The notes under the pieces were generated by a model that saw only the letters and a list, made by a program, of their open reading frames with translations, had not been told where the DNA came from and ran no database searches. From Bradyrhizobium barranii subsp. barranii (GTDB lineage Bacteria > Pseudomonadota > Alphaproteobacteria > Rhizobiales > Xanthobacteraceae), in contig NZ_CP086136.1 in the NCBI RefSeq assembly GCF_017565645.3, positions 7,857,501 to 7,921,500 of the forward strand: DNA of 64,000 nt, in the 5' to 3' direction. Of this stretch, positions 17,261 to 30,180 are shown piece by piece; positions within the stretch are counted from its first letter, which is position 1; every line of letters starts with the position of its first letter. The translations under genes were made by a program, and so were the position numbers.

Positions 17261-19951
17261 ATGCCAGACGCAATGGTCGCCGCACGTGAGTCCAAAGCGG
17301 CGAGTGGAACAGCCCAACAAGTCGACGTTGCCGTGGTCGGCGCCGGATTTGCCGGCCTTTATCTTCTCCATCGCCTGCGCAAGTCCGGCCTCACGGCGGT
17401 CGCCCTCGAGGAAGCCGGCGATGTCGGCGGCACCTGGTACTGGAACCGCTATCCCGGCGCCCGCTGCGATATCCAGACCATCGACTACAGCTACACTTTC
17501 GATCCCGAGCTCGATAACGCGTGGACCTGGTCGGAGAAATACGCGACCCAGCCCGAGATCCTGCGCTATCTCGGCTTCGTTGCCGACCGCTACGATCTGC
17601 GCCGCGACATCCGCTTCAAGACCAAGGTCACCGAAGCCAAGTGGGATGAAGCGACTGAGCGCTGGCAGCTCACCACGAGCAGCGGCACGCCGGTCTCCTG
17701 CCGCCACTACATCATGGCTACAGGCTGCCTCTCCGCGCCGAAGCCGCCGGAGATCGACGGCGTCAAGGATTTCGAGGGCAAAGTCTATTTCACCGGGCGC
17801 TGGCCGCATGACGGCGTCGATCTCGCCGGCAAGCGCGTCGCCGTGATCGGCACAGGCTCGTCGGCCATCCAGTCGATCCCGCTGATCGCCGAGCAGGCCG
17901 CGCATCTGACCGTGTTCCAGCGCACGCCAAACTTCGCGCTGCCGGCGCATAACGGCCCCTCGCCATCCGATCGCATGGATATTTTCCAGAGCGACCGCGC
18001 GGCCTATCGCGAGCAGGCGCGACAGTCGATGACCGGCGTGCCCTATCCGCAGCAGACCGTCGTGAGCTGGCAATTGAGCGATGCCGAGCGTCGTGAGCGG
18101 TTCGAACGTGCCTGGGCCGCCGGCGACCTCGTCCACATCCTGACGCAGCTCTGGGCCGACCAGGGCGTCGACTTCAACGGCAATGCGCTGATCGGCGAGC
18201 TGATCCGCGAGAAGATCGGCGCTGCCGTGAAGGATCCGGAGACGGCGGCGGCGCTGATGCCGCACGACCATCCCTTCGGCGCAAAGCGCCCCTGCCTCGA
18301 TACCAATTACTACGCGACCTACAATCGGCCGAACGTCACGCTGGTCAATCTGCGCCAGGAGCCGATCAAGGCGATCACCGCGAACAGCATCACGACGGCC
18401 AGGCGCAGCGTCGATGTCGACGTCATCGTGTTCGCGACCGGCTTCGACGCCATGACCGGCGCGATCCGCGCCGTGCATCCGATCACCGGACGCGGCGGCA
18501 AGTCGCTGACCGATGTCTGGGCGCAGGGGCCGCAGACCTATCTCGGGGTCACGGTCGAAGGGTTCCCCAACTTCTTCATGATCACCGGGCCCGGCAGCCC
18601 GTCGGTGCTGTCGAACATGGCGGTGTCGATCGAGCAGCATGTCGACTGGGTCGTCGACCGCATCGCTGCGCTGCGCTACGCCGGCTTCACCACGATCGAG
18701 CCGACCGAGACCGCGCAGGCCGGCTGGGGCCGGCACATGACGGACTGTTCGATGGTGACCCTGCACCGGCTCGCCAACACCTGGTACACGGGCGCCAACG
18801 TCCCCGGCAAGGTGCAGGGCCTGATGCCTTACACCGGCGGCGTCGGCCCCTATCGCAGCATTTGCGACGAGGTCACGGCCCGCGGCATGCTCGGCTTCAA
18901 GCTGACCGGCCCCAACGGCGCCGCGCAATGCAACGACGGCGAGGTGGTATGCCTGCAGCCGGATGTGCGGCTGGTGCTGAACCTGCTGGCATCGCTGAAC
19001 CTGCCGCCGATCGAGTCGATGGGCGCGCTCGGCGCACGCGCCTTCGTCAACGAGTTCAACAAGGGCCGGCCCGCGGGACGGCTGATCGGCGATATCGTCG
19101 ACGGCACGCTGCCCGGCACGGACGGCCCGCTGCCTTACCGGATCTACAAGCCGGCAACGCCGGGGCCGCATCCGGTCGTGGTCTATTTCCACGGCGGCGG
19201 CTGGGTGCTCGGCGACGAGCAATCGGACGAGCCGCTCTGCCGCGATCTGGTGCGGCGGACCGGCATGATGTTCGTCAGCGTCGGCTATCGCCACGCGCCC
19301 GAGCATCGTTTCCCGACCGCGGCCGAGGACGGCTATGCGGCAACACGCTGGATCGCCGAGCACGCGACAGAGCTTGGCGGCAGGCCGGGCCCGGTGCTGG
19401 TCGCGGGCTGGAGCGCCGGCGGCAACATCGCCGCCGTCACCTGCCAGCTTGCGCGCGATCGCGGCGGGCCTGAGATCGCCGGCCAGCTCCTGGTCTGCCC
19501 GGTCACCGACTGCACCTTCGACCGGCCCTCCTACAACGACAACGCGACCGGCTATTTCCTGACGCGCTCGCTGATGTACTGGTTCTGGGACCTCTACTGC
19601 TCACCGGCCGACCGCACCGATCCGCGCGTCTCGCCGCTGCGCGGCAACGTCGCCGGTCTGCCGCCGGCCTTGGTCGTCACCTGTGAATTCGACCCGTTGC
19701 GCGACGAGGGCATCGCCTATGCCGAGGCAATGGCGGCCGCCGGCGTCCCGGTCGAGCAACTCAGGGCGCGCGGCCATTTCCACTCGTCCTTTGCGATGGT
19801 CGACGTGGTGATCACCGGTGTAGCAGGCCGGGTGCAGATGGCCGAAGCCCTGCGGCGCTTCGCCGGGCTTCCGCCGGAAGTCGGCCGCGGCGATGAGGAT
19901 AGCCACGCTCATGCCAGCCCGGGCCACAGAATCGCGGCGGCCGCGAGCTGA
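17261..19951 (+). CDS. Baeyer-Villiger monooxygenase fused to an alpha/beta-hydrolase esterase
   Basis: An 896-residue two-domain enzyme. Residues about 20-560 form a class B flavin monooxygenase: FAD site [34 protein letters not shown] site [13 protein letters not shown], and the BVMO fingerprint region near 170-181 ([12 protein letters not shown]). Residues about 600-880 form an HSL-type hydrolase with HGGGW, nucleophile GWSAGG near 716, CEFDPLRDE and [12 protein letters not shown] turns a ketone into an ester or lactone and the esterase hydrolyses it, so one polypeptide could carry out two consecutive steps of ketone breakdown. The start ATG 17261 has GGGAGGA before it. The fingerprint His is replaced by Phe (finding). 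Confidence 0.92.
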
Positions 19952-22225: not shown

Positions 22226-23476
22226 TCAGCCGACGAGGCCTCCCATCGGCTTGACGTCAGCACTGCCGGGGAAGACCGCATCCGCCAGCACCTTCTCCTC
22301 GACGCGCAGATGATCCCTGAGCAGACCCTTCAGCACGGCGCGGAGATCGGTGGTCGGCTTGAGGTCGCGATCCTCGAACAGTTGCGCGGACTTCAGTCCC
22401 GGCCAGTCCGCGATCACGCGGCCGCCGGTGAGCGCGCCGCCAATGAGGAAGGCGACCGTGCCCGTGCCGTGATCCGTGCCCTGCGTGCCATTGATGCGCG
22501 CGGTGCGCCCGAACTCGGTGACGACGGCGACGACCGTCTCGCCCCACACCTCGCCCATGTTGCTCTCGATCGCGGCAAACGCACCGTCGAGCGCGCCGAG
22601 CAGATTGTAGAGCTGGCCTGACGCTGCGCCTTCCGCGATGTGCGTATCCCAGCCGACGAAGCCCATCGCGCCGACGCGCGGGCCGTCGGGCTTGGCGAGA
22701 TAGCGCGCGGCGGTGCCGGCGGCTTCGGCGAAATAGGCGCGCACGCGCGCGATGCCGGGCGGCATCAATGTCGGATCGTCCGACATCGGATCGCCCGTGC
22801 CGGGCGCGCCGCCGAGCGAGGCGAGCTTCATGCGTGCCTGGAGCACGGTCGCAAGCTTTGGATCGGTGTGCTGGTAGAGATCGAGCAGGCGGTTCTGCGT
22901 GTCCTCGCTCGCCGGCAACAGTTTTTGCGGCACCCATGTCATGACGGGCGCCGAGCCGCGCACCACCAGCGGCGTCACCGAGCCGATGCCGAGCGCACGG
23001 CTGCCGCGCGGATCGACGCGCCCACCCGACTCCGTCGCGAGCAGCGCGCGGTTGAGCCATCCCGATGCGGTGGCACCGGGCTTGGTGAACCCGCTCTCCA
23101 GCACGTCCTGGCCGTCGAAATGCGAGCGTTCGCGGTAGGGCGTCGCGGCGGCATGGACGATTGCGGCCTTGCCGGTCTTGTAGAGCCGGTGCAGGTTCGG
23201 CATCGCCGGGTTGAGCGCGAAGAAGGAATCGAGCGGCAATGCCGGCGGCTTGCCGTCCAGCACCAGCGCGCGATCGCCGCGCAGGCCGACCCAGTCGGGA
23301 TCGCCCACCGGCGCGACCGCACCGAGACCATCGAGCGCGCCACGCAGGACGACGACGAGAAGGCGCGGATCGCGCCCTTCGGCGCGTGCGATCCGCGGCA
23401 TCTGGCTCCACGCGAACAGCGCACCGGAGCCGACCAGAAGTTCGCGCCGCGTGGGCAAATGATTGTCGAAGCCCAT
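22226..23476 (-). CDS. DUF1501 domain protein, Tat-exported
   Basis: A 416-residue protein of the DUF1501 family, related to the alkaline phosphatase/sulfatase fold. The N-terminus has PTRRELLVGSG, a twin-arginine signal. The C-terminal region carries VVTEFGRTARINGTQGTDHGTG, a likely metal site. DUF1501 and DUF1800 genes almost always occur as pairs; their biochemical role is not settled. The start is placed at ATG 23476, which has AGGAGGTGAGC ahead of it; a GTG at 23482 overlaps the previous stop but is too close to that site. See finding on shared regulation with the BlaI operon. Confidence 0.85.
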   Translation of the reverse strand: MGFDNHLPTRRELLVGSGALFAWSQMPRIARAEGRDPRLLVVVLRGALDGLGAVAPVGDPDWVGLRGDRALVLDGKPPALPLDSFFALNPAMPNLHRLYKTGKAAIVHAAATPYRERSHFDGQDVLESGFTKPGATASGWLNRALLATESGGRVDPRGSRALGIGSVTPLVVRGSAPVMTWVPQKLLPASEDTQNRLLDLYQHTDPKLATVLQARMKLASLGGAPGTGDPMSDDPTLMPPGIARVRAYFAEAAGTAARYLAKPDGPRVGAMGFVGWDTHIAEGAASGQLYNLLGALDGAFAAIESNMGEVWGETVVAVVTEFGRTARINGTQGTDHGTGTVAFLIGGALTGGRVIADWPGLKSAQLFEDRDLKPTTDLRAVLKGLLRDHLRVEEKVLADAVFPGSADVKPMGGLVG

Positions 23477-23478
23477 GC

Positions 23479-24960
23479 TCACCTCCTCTGAAAATCTGCC
23501 GACATGAACAGCAGCGCCAGCGCCTGCTGGCGGCTCTCGGCGCGGCCGACCGCCTGCTTCACTTCGGGCGCGATCTGCGATGCGAAGACGTCCTCGATGA
23601 TCCCCTGCGGATCAGCAGTGGCCGCCACGCGCTCGGCAAAATTGTTGGCGATGTCGAGCCGCCGACCGATGCCATCGATCCAGCTTGCCTCGTCATCCGG
23701 ATAGCCCTTGGGCGCCGACGGCCGCCACAGCCCTTCGCCGAGCAGCTCCTGGCCCGCCGTGAAACGCGTGGGGTCGACGACCGTAATCCCCGTCGCGCGC
23801 ACCATGCCAACGCCCCATTCGCTCGGACGCTTCAGTTTTGACGGCGACCCGCGCCACGCGTCGTCCGACGAGACCATCGTAATCGCGACCTGCTTGAGAT
23901 CGCCCTCGGTGTCGCGGAACGTCTTCGCCATTTGTTCGACGAGTGGCGGAGGCGGCTCGTCGGCCACGAAATGCCGTGCGAGCTTGGTTGCGACATGGGT
24001 CGCGGTCGCCGGATGCGCAGCGAGGTCGCGCAGCACGGCGCGGCCCTGCTCGGCGTCCTCCTGCTCGTAACGCTTGCCGAGCACCGTCTGCCCGCCGGGC
24101 TCGTGGAGCCGCGGGTTGAAGGTGAATTCGCCGCCGTGCTCCGGATTGTCTCCAGGAGGAACAAGCGTCCATCCCGTCAACACATTGGCGAAGCTGATCA
24201 CGTCGTCCTGAGTGTAGCCGGTCCGCACACCCAGCGTGTGCAATTCTATGATCTCACGCGCAATGTTTTCGTTGAGGCCGCGGCTGCGGTTGATGCCGGC
24301 GATCGAGTTCGCGCCCATCGAGCCCAGATTGTCGAGATAGAACAGCATCGCCGGGTGGCCTTCGACCGCCAGCAGAAGATCGACGAAGTGGCCGAGCGCA
24401 TTTGCGCGAATGGCCTCGCGTTCGTAAGCACCCGACATGCTCTGGATCTTGTAGGCCGAGATGCAGAAATGGTTGGACCAGAACCACACCAGCCGCTCGG
24501 CGAAGCCGATGTCGGCGGCGAGCGCGGCTTCGGTGCGCAGCTTGGCTTCCTGCAAGTAGATCGGACGGCCGGGATCGGGAACGGCGTCGGCTGCCTGCTT
24601 GGCCGCCATCTCGGCAGCATCCTTCTCCTGGCCCTGTGCTGGCGCTTGCCCCTCGGTCTGCGCCTGAGCCTGAGCCTGGTCACCCGGAGCAGTTGGCACC
24701 GCAGCCACCTGCTGCTTCTTGGCCTGTTGCTGCGCCTGCTTGGCGCGCGCGGCTCGCCGTGCATTGGCATCGGCCACTGTGCGATAGGCCTTCGCACTGG
24801 TGGGAAGGCTGGCGGCGGCGCTCAATGCGAGCGGCCGATCGAGCTCTGCGATCAACGCGCCGCGCGGGTCGGTCCCGACAGCCGCGAGTGATCCCGGTCG
24901 CGGCCCCATCCCGAACCGATGAAGCGCCAGCACCGCTTCAGCCTTTGCAGAATTGCTCAT
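23479..24960 (-). CDS. DUF1800 domain protein
   Basis: A 493-residue member of the DUF1800 family (PF08811). Core features are ALHRFGMGPRPGSL at the N-terminus, ERLVWFWSNHFCIS, YLDNLGSMGANSIAGINRSRGLNENIAREIIELHTLGV, FANVLTGW and LARHFVADEPP. Residues about 60-125 are a low-complexity insert rich in Gln, Ala and Lys. No signal peptide is apparent, although the partner DUF1501 protein has a Tat signal. It precedes the DUF1501 gene by 2 nt. A 20-bp sequence shared with the blaI promoter region lies 68-87 bases upstream of its start. Confidence 0.88.
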   Translation of the reverse strand: MSNSAKAEAVLALHRFGMGPRPGSLAAVGTDPRGALIAELDRPLALSAAASLPTSAKAYRTVADANARRAARAKQAQQQAKKQQVAAVPTAPGDQAQAQAQTEGQAPAQGQEKDAAEMAAKQAADAVPDPGRPIYLQEAKLRTEAALAADIGFAERLVWFWSNHFCISAYKIQSMSGAYEREAIRANALGHFVDLLLAVEGHPAMLFYLDNLGSMGANSIAGINRSRGLNENIAREIIELHTLGVRTGYTQDDVISFANVLTGWTLVPPGDNPEHGGEFTFNPRLHEPGGQTVLGKRYEQEDAEQGRAVLRDLAAHPATATHVATKLARHFVADEPPPPLVEQMAKTFRDTEGDLKQVAITMVSSDDAWRGSPSKLKRPSEWGVGMVRATGITVVDPTRFTAGQELLGEGLWRPSAPKGYPDDEASWIDGIGRRLDIANNFAERVAATADPQGIIEDVFASQIAPEVKQAVGRAESRQQALALLFMSADFQRR

Positions 24961-25145: not shown

Positions 25146-27158
25146 CTAGAAATTCGGCCCGAGCGCGATCTTCGCCGCGTGCTGCTCCCAAGGCCCAGGA
25201 TTCAAGATGAGCCCAGAGACTTTGCCCGCGGCGTCCCTGACGAAAGCGATCCGGGTACGATCTTCGTCGGCTGCGGTGAATTCGTTGCTTGATGTCGCCA
25301 CGAACGAGGTCGCCTTGCCCTTCTCGAATTCGAGGACCGGCCAGACCCCCGTCGCTCCCGCGACGAGCTTGCCTTCCGCGACGCGAACCTGAAGCCGGAC
25401 CGAATTGACACGGCGGTCGGCTCTCACGACACTGAGGTCGTTCACGCCGTCTTGCCCCTTGTGGACGAGCCTCATCTTGATCGTCGAGTTGGCTGGCCCT
25501 CGCAGCTTGGCCAGGACATCGGCGAGCGCGAGGCCTCTCAGCGGCGCGCCGTCAATTTCAGTGATGAGGTCACCCGCCGTCACACCGGCCTTGGTTGCGG
25601 GGCCGCCGCCAGGGTTCGGCTTGTTGATCCTCAGCCCCTCCTGTTCCATGGCGACGAAATTCCCGATTCCAAGCCATCCGGTCTTGCCATCGGCCAGGCC
25701 CTGCCTGTCACGCGAGCTCACCGTGGCGCCGAAGTCATAGGTCCCGGCATAATCGGCGAGCGCTTCCGGGCTCAGGGTCACCGGCGCAGCCGGCGGGACG
25801 GCGGTCGACTCGGGAATCGTCAATGCGCCATAGACGAGGTGATTGATCCCCGAATACAGCACCGCCTGGCGCGCTTTGCTGCCGGGCGTCGCCTGGACCA
25901 TCTGTACGCCGATCAATTGCTCGGCCGGATCGATCCAGAAATACGTGCTCCAATGTCCAGCCCAGGAAAAGCTTCCAACCGCTCCCGGTATCCAGCTTTG
26001 GACCGGATCGGCGCGGATGGCGAAGCCAAGCCCGAAGGTTGTTCCCGCGCGGGCGCCAACCTCGTCACCTCCGAAGATGGTGACACCCGATGGCAGTGCG
26101 TTCGTCGTCATCTGCTTCACCGCATGCGGGCTGAGCACGCGCACGCCATCGAGCTCGCCGCCATTGAGCAGCATCTGGCAAAAGCGGAGATAGTCGGGCG
26201 CGGTCGATACGAGTCCGCCGTCGCCGGAAAACAACTTTGGCGGCGTCGTGACATCCCAGATCGGCGGCCGTTCCGGCATGGGAAAATCGACCAGCCGATC
26301 GAGCTTCTCCTTCGGTACAAAGAAGCCGGTGTCGACCATATGCAGCGGCCCAAAGATGCGGCTCTCCAGGAACTGATCGAAGGGCTGACCGGACGCCACT
26401 TCAACGACCCGGCTCAGCACTTCGGCGCTCCAGCCATATTCATGGACCTCGCCGGGCTCGTGCGCGAGCGGCAGGCGGGCCAGGCTCGACACGAATTCCG
26501 CCAACGTCGTGTCGCGTCTCCGCACGGCCCTCAAGGCGTAGAGCCCATGGATCGTCCGGATCCCGAAGTCGGCGCTTGCGTCGGCAAGGCCCCGTTCCGG
26601 GTAGGCAAAATCGAGCTCCGGATAGATCAGGCCAGACGTATGGCGCAACAGATCGCGAACCGTCATCGCACGTTTTGCTGGTTTTGGCAGACCGAGCCCG
26701 TACTCCATTTCGCCTGTCGCCGGGTCCGCCTTCTGGAAAGCGACCCGCATGTTCGCAAGCTCCGGCAGATATTGCGAGACGGGCGCGTCGAGGTCGAGCT
26801 TGCCCTCATCCACCAGAATCATGGCGGCGACACTGGCCACCGGCTTGGACATCGAGGCGATCCAGAAGATGGAATTCGTCTTCATCGGGACGGTCTTGGC
26901 GCGGTCCTGAAATCCGATGGCCTGCAAATAGGCGAGCTTGCCGCCCTTCGCGATTGCGACGACCGCGCCGGGCAAAAGGCCGTCCGACGGCGAGAAAGAA
27001 TCGAAGCGCGCCTGATACCACGGCGCGATCCGCGCCAGACGCGCGGCCGAGAATCCCAGGCTTTTTGCATCGCCCGGCGTCGCGAGGTCATCGGCGAACG
27101 CGGTCCCCAACAGGCACAGTCCAACGGGAATCGCCCACATCGATGCGACGAGTCTCAT
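25146..27158 (-). CDS. Secreted beta-lactamase-fold serine hydrolase with PDZ and DUF3471-like C-terminus
   Basis: A 670-residue protein. It has a signal peptide (1-22), then a class C beta-lactamase/DD-peptidase domain (about 35-445) with the SxxK motif SMSK at 102-105, a YGW tyrosine motif at 241, LLRHTSGL and SGDGGLVSTAPDY. Next is a linker, a PDZ-like domain (about 495-575: GGGPATKAGVTAGDLITEIDG) and a DUF3471-like segment (about 585-670) that ends in KIALGPNF. The same eight final residues end the BlaR1-like protein encoded upstream. The start is ATG 27158. It lies 62 nt after the BlaR1-like gene and is probably in one operon. The substrate may be peptidoglycan or an ester; undetermined. 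Confidence 0.86.
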   Translation of the reverse strand: MRLVASMWAIPVGLCLLGTAFADDLATPGDAKSLGFSAARLARIAPWYQARFDSFSPSDGLLPGAVVAIAKGGKLAYLQAIGFQDRAKTVPMKTNSIFWIASMSKPVASVAAMILVDEGKLDLDAPVSQYLPELANMRVAFQKADPATGEMEYGLGLPKPAKRAMTVRDLLRHTSGLIYPELDFAYPERGLADASADFGIRTIHGLYALRAVRRRDTTLAEFVSSLARLPLAHEPGEVHEYGWSAEVLSRVVEVASGQPFDQFLESRIFGPLHMVDTGFFVPKEKLDRLVDFPMPERPPIWDVTTPPKLFSGDGGLVSTAPDYLRFCQMLLNGGELDGVRVLSPHAVKQMTTNALPSGVTIFGGDEVGARAGTTFGLGFAIRADPVQSWIPGAVGSFSWAGHWSTYFWIDPAEQLIGVQMVQATPGSKARQAVLYSGINHLVYGALTIPESTAVPPAAPVTLSPEALADYAGTYDFGATVSSRDRQGLADGKTGWLGIGNFVAMEQEGLRINKPNPGGGPATKAGVTAGDLITEIDGAPLRGLALADVLAKLRGPANSTIKMRLVHKGQDGVNDLSVVRADRRVNSVRLQVRVAEGKLVAGATGVWPVLEFEKGKATSFVATSSNEFTAADEDRTRIAFVRDAAGKVSGLILNPGPWEQHAAKIALGPNF

Positions 27159-27220: not shown

Positions 27221-29740
27221 CTAGAAATTGGGTCCGAGCGCGATCTTCGTGATCGTGCCGTTCCTGACGCCGATGCGCCATTCCGCCGAGCCGTTGGCGA
27301 ACTGGGCGACATAGATGTCGCTGTCGAGCGCGGTGACGCCACGGAACGAAACCGCGCGCAATGCGCCGAGCCGCGCCAGGATCGCCTGGTCGAACGGAAG
27401 CTGCTGACGCGTGATGTCGGCCACCTCCGACGTCATGCGCTCGTAGTCCGGCTGGCCCTTGCCGACGCCATCGATGTAGCGGCGCAGCATCTCCTCGCCA
27501 TTGGCGATCGGAACGGCGCGGCGCGCCGCGCGCCCCGGCCGCGCGCCGATGTTCGACGCTTCGACATTGTGGAAGCGGGTCTGCCGCCCCGGCAGCAGGA
27601 CCTCGAGGCACCGCCCAGACTTGTCTGCAATCACCCAGGGATTGTTCACGGTGGTCGTGGACGCCCAGGACACGTTGGGCCTGACGGTGCTCTGCATCCT
27701 GCGATTGCCATCGGCGTCGAGATTGAAGACCTGGATGTCGTCGCCCATCTCGTTATAGACCATGATCCTGATCGGCGAAGTGCCGGCGTGGCCACGCACG
27801 CGCGCTTCCTCCGAGCAAGGCACGATACCGCCGAGCTCGTCATTGCCGTCGGGCCGGAAGATCACGTCGCCGGCCTTGCCGTCGGGCTCGATCATCAGGC
27901 GGAATTCGGCCGTGCCGTTCTCGAACTTCGCGCCATAGATGTCATAGCCGCCAGGGCCGACGCCGCGGAAGAAGATCGATTCCACCACGCCGAGCGCCTG
28001 GAAGGCCTCGCGCATTTCATTGAGCTGCCGGTGGACCTTGGCCGCGAGCGGCGCGCTCATGCGATCGTAGTTCGGCGTTCCGGCGCGCAGGTCTTCGATC
28101 CCGCGCAAGATCATCTCCTTGCCGCCCGCGACCGGGACTTGCTCCCTGAACCTGTCAGGAACTTCCGCAAGGCGGCGCGTGAAGTCCGCCTCGACCGCCT
28201 GCGCCACCGCCGCATCGACGCGAGGCGCGAGGCGAGCGCCGAACATCGCGCTCTGCACCAGCACGCGTGCAACCTTCGACTGCTCGTCGCGCAGGAAGAT
28301 CAAGAGATGGTCGCCGCGGAAGGAGAAGGCGTCAGCGCCCTCGGCGAGGACCTGCGTTGCGCCCTGTCCCGTCTCACGCAACCAGAGATCATCGCCGTCA
28401 CGCCGCAGCGTGAGCACGCGGTTCGGCGCGATCCTGTACCAGCCGACATATTGATCGAGCGATGCGGGATCGACGGCCGCGGTCGGCATCTCGGCGACGC
28501 GAACCGCGCGGATATCGCGGCCGTTCATGCGCAGCGTCAGCTCGGAGGAGCGGCGCTCCGCATCGAGCGGGAACGTGATCTCGCCGGACGAGGCCGCGTA
28601 GGCCGCGGTGCCGTCACTGCCAACCGTCAGGCGCAGCCTGCGCTGTCCGGTGAGCTGGCCGTAGAGGTCGTCGCCCTCGCGGAAGATGGCGAACACCGAG
28701 GCAGGACCCATGGCGTAGAAATTGACGAAGGGGCGGTAATGCTGGGCCGGCACCTCGCCGGTATCCGCGGCGACGGGCACGGGATCCGGGGTGCGATAGG
28801 CGATCATGCCGGCGGACACGATCACAGCCGGAATGATCGCGGCTGCGATCCACAGCCGCTTGCGCCAGCCGACCGCGACGGGCATGGCGGCGGCCGCGAT
28901 GATGCGCTCGACGCGTGCGCGCACGGTCGATACCCGCGCCATTGCGAGCTCCACCGGCCGCGGATTTACGCTGGTTGCAACATCGAGCAGGATTTCGGCA
29001 TAGGACCAGCGGTCGTCGATGACTTCGATCGCCTCGGCGTCGCTGATGATCTCGGCGAGCTCGGCAAGGCGCACGAGCTGCCACCACGAGAACGGACTGA
29101 ACCAGAACATTGCACGGTTGAGCGAGGCGAGCAGCAGGACATAGAAATCGCGATTGGCGACGTGCGCGCCCTCATGCGCAAGCACCGCGAGGCGCCTCTT
29201 CGCATCCCAGCCGGAGAACTGCGGCGGCACCAGAATGGTCGAGCCGAACGTGACGGGACCGCCGACCTCGCGGCTGACGCGCACGTCGGCGTCGATCAGC
29301 TGCGGGCCGCTCATCGGCCTTGCCGCGCGTGCCAGACGCCAGGTCAGGCAGAGACCGATGGCCAGCCGCAGCAGCAACGCGCCGGCGACGCCGGCATAGA
29401 CGATGGTGGCGACCAGCCACCAATTGATCGATACAGCAGCTTTTGCCGGCGCCACGACAGCCGCGCCCGGCGGAATCGGCAGCGCCGGTTGCGGGGCCTC
29501 CAGCATCGAGATGTCGGCCGGCAGGAAATCATCCGGCACGGATACCGGCAGAGGCATCCGGGTGATCGTCAGCGTCGGCCAATGCATCACGAAGGGCATC
29601 GCCAGCGATGCCAGCAGCACGACGACCCACGCCGTCATGTGAACGTGCGGATTGCGCACGCGAAACAGGTTGAGACCGAACCAGACGACGCCTCCCAGCA
29701 CGAAGGAGCGTAGCGCCGCCTCAGCCAGAGTTGCGATCAT
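27221..29740 (-). CDS. BlaR1-like M56 metallopeptidase with DUF3471-like repeats and a VHL-like beta domain
   Basis: An 839-residue membrane protein. Residues 1-315 form the BlaR1/MecR1-type part with about four hydrophobic helices and the zinc motif HEGAH at 189-193. The rest lies outside the membrane: two DUF3471-like segments (about 335-415 and 430-500), a repeat at about 541-630 (GGKEMILRGIEDLRAGTPNYDRM then FFRGVGPGGYDIYGAKFENG), a VHL-like beta domain at about 655-722, and a second repeat copy at about 748-839. The usual penicillin-binding sensor domain is absent. The start overlaps the blaI stop (ATGA). By analogy it senses an envelope signal and cleaves BlaI; the signal is unknown. 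Confidence 0.88.
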   Translation of the reverse strand: MIATLAEAALRSFVLGGVVWFGLNLFRVRNPHVHMTAWVVVLLASLAMPFVMHWPTLTITRMPLPVSVPDDFLPADISMLEAPQPALPIPPGAAVVAPAKAAVSINWWLVATIVYAGVAGALLLRLAIGLCLTWRLARAARPMSGPQLIDADVRVSREVGGPVTFGSTILVPPQFSGWDAKRRLAVLAHEGAHVANRDFYVLLLASLNRAMFWFSPFSWWQLVRLAELAEIISDAEAIEVIDDRWSYAEILLDVATSVNPRPVELAMARVSTVRARVERIIAAAAMPVAVGWRKRLWIAAAIIPAVIVSAGMIAYRTPDPVPVAADTGEVPAQHYRPFVNFYAMGPASVFAIFREGDDLYGQLTGQRRLRLTVGSDGTAAYAASSGEITFPLDAERRSSELTLRMNGRDIRAVRVAEMPTAAVDPASLDQYVGWYRIAPNRVLTLRRDGDDLWLRETGQGATQVLAEGADAFSFRGDHLLIFLRDEQSKVARVLVQSAMFGARLAPRVDAAVAQAVEADFTRRLAEVPDRFREQVPVAGGKEMILRGIEDLRAGTPNYDRMSAPLAAKVHRQLNEMREAFQALGVVESIFFRGVGPGGYDIYGAKFENGTAEFRLMIEPDGKAGDVIFRPDGNDELGGIVPCSEEARVRGHAGTSPIRIMVYNEMGDDIQVFNLDADGNRRMQSTVRPNVSWASTTTVNNPWVIADKSGRCLEVLLPGRQTRFHNVEASNIGARPGRAARRAVPIANGEEMLRRYIDGVGKGQPDYERMTSEVADITRQQLPFDQAILARLGALRAVSFRGVTALDSDIYVAQFANGSAEWRIGVRNGTITKIALGPNF

Positions 29741-30129
29741 TCTTTCTTCACTCCCCTCGCCTTCTTCGCCTTGGCCACCTGGTCGGCCAGTGTACGCAGC
29801 TGCTGCTGGTCGAGCATCGCATTGTCCACCATGCCGACGAGGACTTCCTCCATCGAGCCGTTGCAGAACCAGTCGACGATACGCTGCACCGCCTTGGCCG
29901 CGACCCGCGCGCGCTCTTCTGCAGCGTGGTAGACATAGGTGCGTCCGTCCACGGTGTGCCGAGCATAGCCCTTTTCTTCCAGCCGGCGCAGCACCGTGCG
30001 GACGGTCGATTCCTTCAGACGCCGCGACAGCCGCTCGCGCACGACCTCGGCCGTAACGGGACCATGGGCCCAAACCAATTGCATGACCTCGTGCTCGAGG
30101 TCGCCCAGTTCGGGCAAACGATCGTCCAT
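29737..30129 (-). CDS. BlaI/MecI/CopY-family transcriptional repressor
   Basis: A 130-residue winged-helix repressor. ELGDLEHEVMQLVWAHGPVTAEVVRERLSRRLKESTVRTVLRRLEEKGYARH is the typical DNA-binding half; the C-terminal helices give dimerisation and contain the region cleaved in this family. It opens an operon with the BlaR1-like gene (4-nt overlap) and the serine hydrolase. A candidate operator lies 32-51 bases upstream, fitting autoregulation. Confidence 0.93.
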   Translation of the reverse strand: MDDRLPELGDLEHEVMQLVWAHGPVTAEVVRERLSRRLKESTVRTVLRRLEEKGYARHTVDGRTYVYHAAEERARVAAKAVQRIVDWFCNGSMEEVLVGMVDNAMLDQQQLRTLADQVAKAKKARGVKKE

Positions 30130-30158: not shown

Positions 30159-30180
30159 TGTAACGCTACAGATCGTCGCA
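30159..30180. promoter_or_regulatory. Putative BlaI operator upstream of blaI
   Basis: TGTA-ACGC-TACA at 30159-30170 is a palindrome with the half-sites expected for a BlaI-type repressor. The stretch 30161-30180 matches 17 of 20 bases of the site before the DUF1800 gene. Confidence 0.6.

Follow-up and report, generated by a model that had tools for sequence, protein, structure and literature searches.

The closest described counterparts of the receptor reported here are BlaR1/MecR1 of Staphylococcus aureus and Bacillus licheniformis, together with the repressors BlaI/MecI. BlaR1 senses the beta-lactam through acylation of its outer sensor and uses its protease to cut BlaI directly (PMC9834060). 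A second point of reference is the beta domain of the von Hippel-Lindau tumour suppressor (VHL; PF01847). Human VHL binds hydroxyproline via W88, Y98, S111, H115 and W117 among others, with H115 contacting the hydroxyl (PMC6650433, PMC9528729). Bacterial VHL domains are already matched by Pfam, and one protein with a VHL beta domain, from Litorilituus and predicted to be secreted, has been treated as a possible tumour suppressor; the accessible part of that paper mentions no protease or receptor layout (PMC9002001). Here we describe, in a stretch of 64,000 nucleotides from Bradyrhizobium barranii subsp. barranii (NZ_CP086136.1, positions 7,857,501 to 7,921,500; hereafter the window), a minus-strand gene (27221..29740) whose product of 839 amino acids, counted from the ATG, joins a BlaR1-type M56 membrane protease to a C-terminal part containing a VHL-type beta domain. 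Judging from sequence comparison and predicted structure, this protein is likely to be a receptor of the BlaR1/BlaI kind, in which a repressor is subject to regulated proteolysis but the signal is received by a different part, one that includes the VHL-type domain.

The protein shares with BlaR1/MecR1 the M56 fold, the HExxH motif, the membrane helices and an adjacent repressor gene. Residues 1-277 (28910..29740, minus strand) match the M56 peptidase family (PF05569) with 49.5 bits against a cut-off of 31, and H189, E190 and H193 of the HEGAH zinc-protease motif (residues 189-193; 29162..29176, minus strand) are invariant in 61 aligned homologues. The last hydrophobic segment was located by hydropathy scan at residues 294-317 (28790..28861, minus strand) and corresponds to a helix at residues 292-310 in the model; by analogy with BlaR1, the part beyond it would lie outside the membrane. 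In contrast to BlaR1/MecR1, there is no penicillin-binding domain among the Pfam matches and no SxxK motif after residue 312, and the NCBIfam BlaR1 score of 26.7 bits is far below the 400-bit cut-off. Instead, sequence and predicted fold place two D-aminopeptidase-type barrels, repeat 1, the VHL-type beta domain and repeat 2 in this order after the membrane part. A gene for a BlaI/MecI/CopY-type repressor (Penicillinase_R; PF03965, 101.3 bits; 29737..30129, minus strand) lies upstream of the M56 gene and shares 4 bases with the start of the latter. The two genes adjoin in 59 of 61 loci, the remaining two contigs ending on that side, and by this adjacency the pair fits the BlaR1-BlaI type. An initial annotation of the window had proposed, at the same coordinates, a BlaR1-type M56 protein without a penicillin-binding sensor and with a VHL-like domain between two repeat copies. 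The observation is confirmed and its interpretation supported, its residue numbers differing from the present borders by about 15 at most; two further elements go beyond it, the pair of barrels that separates the membrane part from the repeats and the pairing with a BlaI-type repressor.

The VHL-type beta domain occupies residues 641-732 (27545..27820, minus strand), an assignment drawn from profiles, a search of Protein Data Bank (PDB) sequences, predicted folds and cysteines. It lies outside the Pfam VHL cut-off of 21 bits, and its homology to VHL is based on intermediates and the predicted fold. A profile of 25 aligned sequences (rows) that did not include this protein matched the domain with 38.5 bits (E 1.3e-9; best of 5000 shuffles 7.4), its weaknesses being one wrong-frame stray among the rows, four weak matches of this protein's own search (L075, L085, L087 and L090; E 0.0047-0.0086) and domain borders cut by a profile built from this protein's matches. 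Without the stray, these four matches and the second L084 domain, and with borders taken from Pfam matches alone, the resulting stricter profile of 19 rows still gave 36.9 bits (E 3.6e-9; best of 5000 shuffles 8.1). Human VHL was found on both profiles. Six relatives found with this domain match PF01847, five of them above the cut-off, which connects it to the family by homology through intermediate members. The PDB sequence search returned 24 matches, all of them VHL, with an alignment (A1) that, like one earlier profile of the domain, is not independent of this protein. Folded alone, the domain reached a pLDDT of 89.9 and a pTM of 0.83, and the predicted structure has the VHL beta-sandwich fold: the 50 rows listed by Foldseek and the 50 listed by VIA-align were without exception VHL entries spanning the whole beta domain, with 16-19% identity to human or mouse VHL in the listed alignments. 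These stop at VHL residue 157 or earlier, where the folded piece itself ended; the VHL alpha family (elongin C-binding) is not among the Pfam matches at E<=1, and in the full model repeat 2 comes after the beta domain. An NCBIfam scan of the protein gave no VHL match, and phmmer, run with the full-length protein on PDB sequences, gave no match at E<=1. A PF01847 search over the organism's own genome yielded two places elsewhere, both below the cut-off and read as noise.

The VHL-type domain was detected in all 254 M56 rows examined (241 proteins and 13 orthologues from loci, overlapping and related), which were gathered with VHL-containing queries, so that absence could be missed. In a tree of VHL domains, 26 M56-fused rows form a single clade with a support of 100/100. 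No VHL annotation is carried by the 240 homologues listed, that is, the best 120 of 961 and the best 120 of 945 from the two homology searches.

With the beta domains of human pVHL and bacterial VHL proteins, the domain shares ancestry, the predicted fold and N78, D90, G93, S/T111 and mostly W117. Unlike human pVHL, it is fused to a membrane protease, and W88, Y98 and H115 are mostly replaced. Read from alignments, positions 88, 98, 111, 115 and 117 are N, Q, T, N and W in this protein, which does not amount to a human-type hydroxyproline-reader pocket. Among the 254 M56-fused rows, W88 occurs in none, Y98 in 11, H115 in 15, S/T111 in 250 and W117 in 216; further counts are 254 for N78, 253 for G93, 240 for P116, 236 for T111 and 231 for D90. 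The 52 bacterial rows without M56 have W88, H115 and W117 in 51 each, S/T111 in 52 and Y98 in 40, and in 39 of them all five (S or T at 111) occur together. After thinning to at most 70% identity, the 41 remaining non-M56 rows agree with human VHL at 0.77 in the five pocket columns against a column average of 0.29, an agreement equalled by 11 of 20000 random five-column sets, whereas the 38 M56 rows reach 0.23 against 0.21. The conservation in the non-M56 rows was not chosen by the query, because the query itself has N, Q, T, N and W at these positions, yet W88 and H115 are each kept in 25 of the 26 rows retrieved with it. Since human VHL and the other bacterial rows alike have the pocket, we infer that the fused branch lost it, rather than that the other rows gained it. 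With the hydroxyproline pocket replaced, the function of VHL is not transferable to this domain, and with its signal-reading pocket rebuilt, the receptor probably senses something other than the oxygen signal that VHL reads in animals.

Cysteines 642 and 711, the sole two after the membrane part of this protein, are present in 254 of 254 M56 rows and in 51 of the 52 other bacterial VHL rows. This pair, common to the receptor and bacterial VHL domains, fits a disulphide outside the cytoplasm. Bacterial VHL rows without M56 are L014-L030, L032-L034, L057-L067, L071, L072, L074, L075, L080-L082, L084-L088, L090, L091 and L093-L097, among which L034 carries two tandem VHL domains. A link between pocket-intact VHL genes and 2-oxoglutarate oxygenases (PF13640) was considered and rejected: such oxygenases are present in 23 of 36 VHL-bearing genomes, none was seen by eye to adjoin a VHL gene, and the nearest place noticed lies about 40 kb away, in G081.

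The two DUF3471/D-aminopeptidase-type barrels cover residues 338-420 and 421-510 (28211..28729, minus strand). In the Ochrobactrum D-aminopeptidase (1ei5), whose C-terminal barrels they resemble, they accompany a catalytic serine-hydrolase domain; here that domain is missing and the barrels follow a membrane protease. Homologues P0160, P0188 and P0230 (about 1090-1130 amino acids) apparently have, by eye, at least three barrels ahead of the repeats. Repeat copy 1 (residues 533-634; 27839..28144, minus strand) and copy 2 (residues 740-839; 27224..27523, minus strand) align over 81 residues with 40% identity (E 2e-19, profile probability 99.9%). A tree of 43 rows places each copy in a separate, fully supported clade across the 14 receptors used and joins the two as sisters with no more than 88/74, so that the repeats are most simply derived from one old duplication. 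The repeat pieces had no Pfam match at E<=10 and the repeat module no PDB match among the fold-search rows listed; the module was not folded alone, hence there is no evidence for a new fold. An M56 protein that lacks VHL (L045 by Pfam, and by eye also L052), MerR-type regulators and one protein whose N-terminus is Glyoxalase_8 each have a single repeat copy after DUF3471. The barrel plus one repeat thus looks like a cassette, seen in L045, L052, L009-L012, L049, L046, L048, L051 and L013, examined with Pfam in L045, L009, L049 and L046 and by eye in the others. The simplest account of the origin of the receptor would be that an M56-barrel-repeat receptor duplicated its repeat and acquired a VHL domain placed between the two.

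Upstream of the repressor gene lies the dyad TGTARCGYTACA (30159..30170, no strand assigned), a candidate operator. Its 10-base core occurs once in the window against 0.03 expected, and in 49 of 59 loci GTA.CG.TAC precedes the repressor gene. The DNA further upstream hardly aligns (15 of the 59 rows shown), and the gene-proximal block is kept. The inner half of the protein and the kind of repressor partner are the same as for BlaR1, so the same output is likely; because the penicillin-binding sensor is missing, the input differs. We propose the following hypothetical sequence of events, in which a ligand or partner would bind the C-terminal part outside the inner membrane, the change on binding would be transmitted through the membrane helices, and the M56 protease would be released to cut the BlaI-type repressor; the repressor would then leave the dyad before its own gene, perhaps together with other sites, which would switch the operon on. 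The VHL domain would have joined an M56-barrel-repeat receptor long ago and be held together by a disulphide, and its rebuilt pocket or surface may take part in binding something other than hydroxyproline.

Several results weigh against parts of this proposal. Pfam VHL found no match in the whole protein at E<=1 or in pieces at E<=10, so that the VHL likeness put forward in the initial annotation failed the check by Pfam profile, taken literally, and passed that by fold and by wider profiles. The most diverged orthologue examined, L044, is weak on the 25-row profile (E 0.0065) and not significant on the 19-row profile (E 0.52), the other 12 of 13 orthologues being significant, and the tree of VHL domains is built on few columns, its deep forks being weak. 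The strict dyad is absent from 10 of 59 upstream regions. A genome search found the 12-base dyad at 2 places, fewer than the 3 of a backwards control, and no further regulated gene was found; a wider regulon was accordingly rejected, no further target is claimed, and only self-control of the operon is proposed here. The second genomic place lies just before the likely start of a reading frame that looks LacI-like by eye. The missing Pfam match, the identity of 16-19% and the behaviour of L044 could also be taken as signs that a plain beta sandwich converged on the VHL form rather than descending from a common ancestor. We regard this as scarcely credible, since profiles free of this protein recover the domain at E 1.3e-9 and 3.6e-9 and human VHL lies on the same profiles, and since both the PDB sequence matches and the listed fold rows consist of VHL entries, the latter over the whole beta domain.

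The favoured reading remains a joint outer part whose VHL domain has been re-tooled for a non-hydroxyproline ligand, and its main rival is a purely structural role, with the VHL-type domain as spacer or dimer contact and the signal received by barrels and repeats. The cassette without VHL behind M56, MerR and Glyoxalase_8 N-termini and the loss of three of five pocket residues in most M56 rows agree with such a role, which we hold to be possible although rather unlikely: the domain is present in every M56 row examined, within the limit set by the queries, N78, G93, P116, T111, D90 and W117 are kept in 216-254 of 254 rows, and both cysteines are kept throughout. A reader of hydroxyproline peptides like human VHL, with the protease reporting for example on plant cell-wall proteins, would suit the fold, the retention of S/T111 and W117, and the prevalence of Bradyrhizobium, a largely plant-associated genus, among the named loci (59 of 61). 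This is very improbable, however, in view of the near-absence of pocket-forming W88 and Y98 and of hydroxyl-binding H115 (pocket roles from PMC6650433 and PMC9528729). A sensor of beta-lactams or peptidoglycan fragments would be suggested by the BlaI-BlaR1 layout, the D-aminopeptidase type of the barrels and an adjacent beta-lactamase-superfamily hydrolase, which would be its effector. This downstream gene (25146..27158, minus strand) encodes a serine hydrolase (PF00144) that also has PDZ and a DUF3471-like tail of weak score, below the cut-off. With no penicillin-binding domain among the Pfam matches, no SxxK after residue 312 and the hydrolase in only 2 of 61 loci, such a sensor appears improbable, and the hydrolase is ruled out as a conserved effector or partner.

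The hydrolase gene interrupts an otherwise common gene order, as if recently inserted. Further downstream, a DUF1800 gene (23479-24960, minus strand; 42 of 61 loci) and a DUF1501 gene (22226-23482, minus strand; 41 of 61 loci) are frequent yet inconstant neighbours. An open frame of 896 amino acids on the plus strand (17261-19951) resembles, by eye, a fusion of a flavin monooxygenase with an alpha/beta hydrolase. A full-length match to the 308-residue part was found in 13 of 296 genomes of a family sample, from four genera, and in 3 of 249 and 3 of 299 genomes of an order and a phylum sample, all of the same genus as the window; a fourth match in the phylum sample, G788, spans one repeat only. 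The 61 loci of the named-genome scan comprise 59 titled Bradyrhizobium, one Hyphomicrobiales assembly and one titled Frankia. The last (L131, JAUEPE010000048.1, Frankia sp. RB7) has a Bradyrhizobium-type locus with 83% identity and may be a mixed assembly or one with the wrong label. Other taxon labels, taken as given, are found on some homologues, such as P0196 (partial, Hyphomicrobiaceae) and P0135 (Pseudolabrys), and speak against a strict limit to the family.

A literature search, with most subscription papers outside its scope and judged by titles and the opening lines of abstracts, found no paper on a VHL domain in an M56 receptor and none on the pocket in bacterial VHL domains, and no mention of VHL was found in PMC1654190. 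Our results place a relative of the animal oxygen-signal reader, the VHL tumour suppressor, in a bacterial transmembrane receptor, and would show that M56 receptors adopt sensor parts unrelated to antibiotics. The comparison of fused with other bacterial VHL domains makes two questions testable by binding, namely the role of bacterial VHL and the residues that give hydroxyproline specificity. Tentatively, and on balance more doubtfully than the receptor itself, bacterial VHL beta domains with the human pocket may be secreted readers of hydroxyproline/proline peptides, of which the Bradyrhizobium-family receptor would be a derived branch, wired to a protease and with its pocket re-tooled. If this is true, the animal oxygen-signal reader would belong to an older, bacterial family whose members read signals outside the cell.
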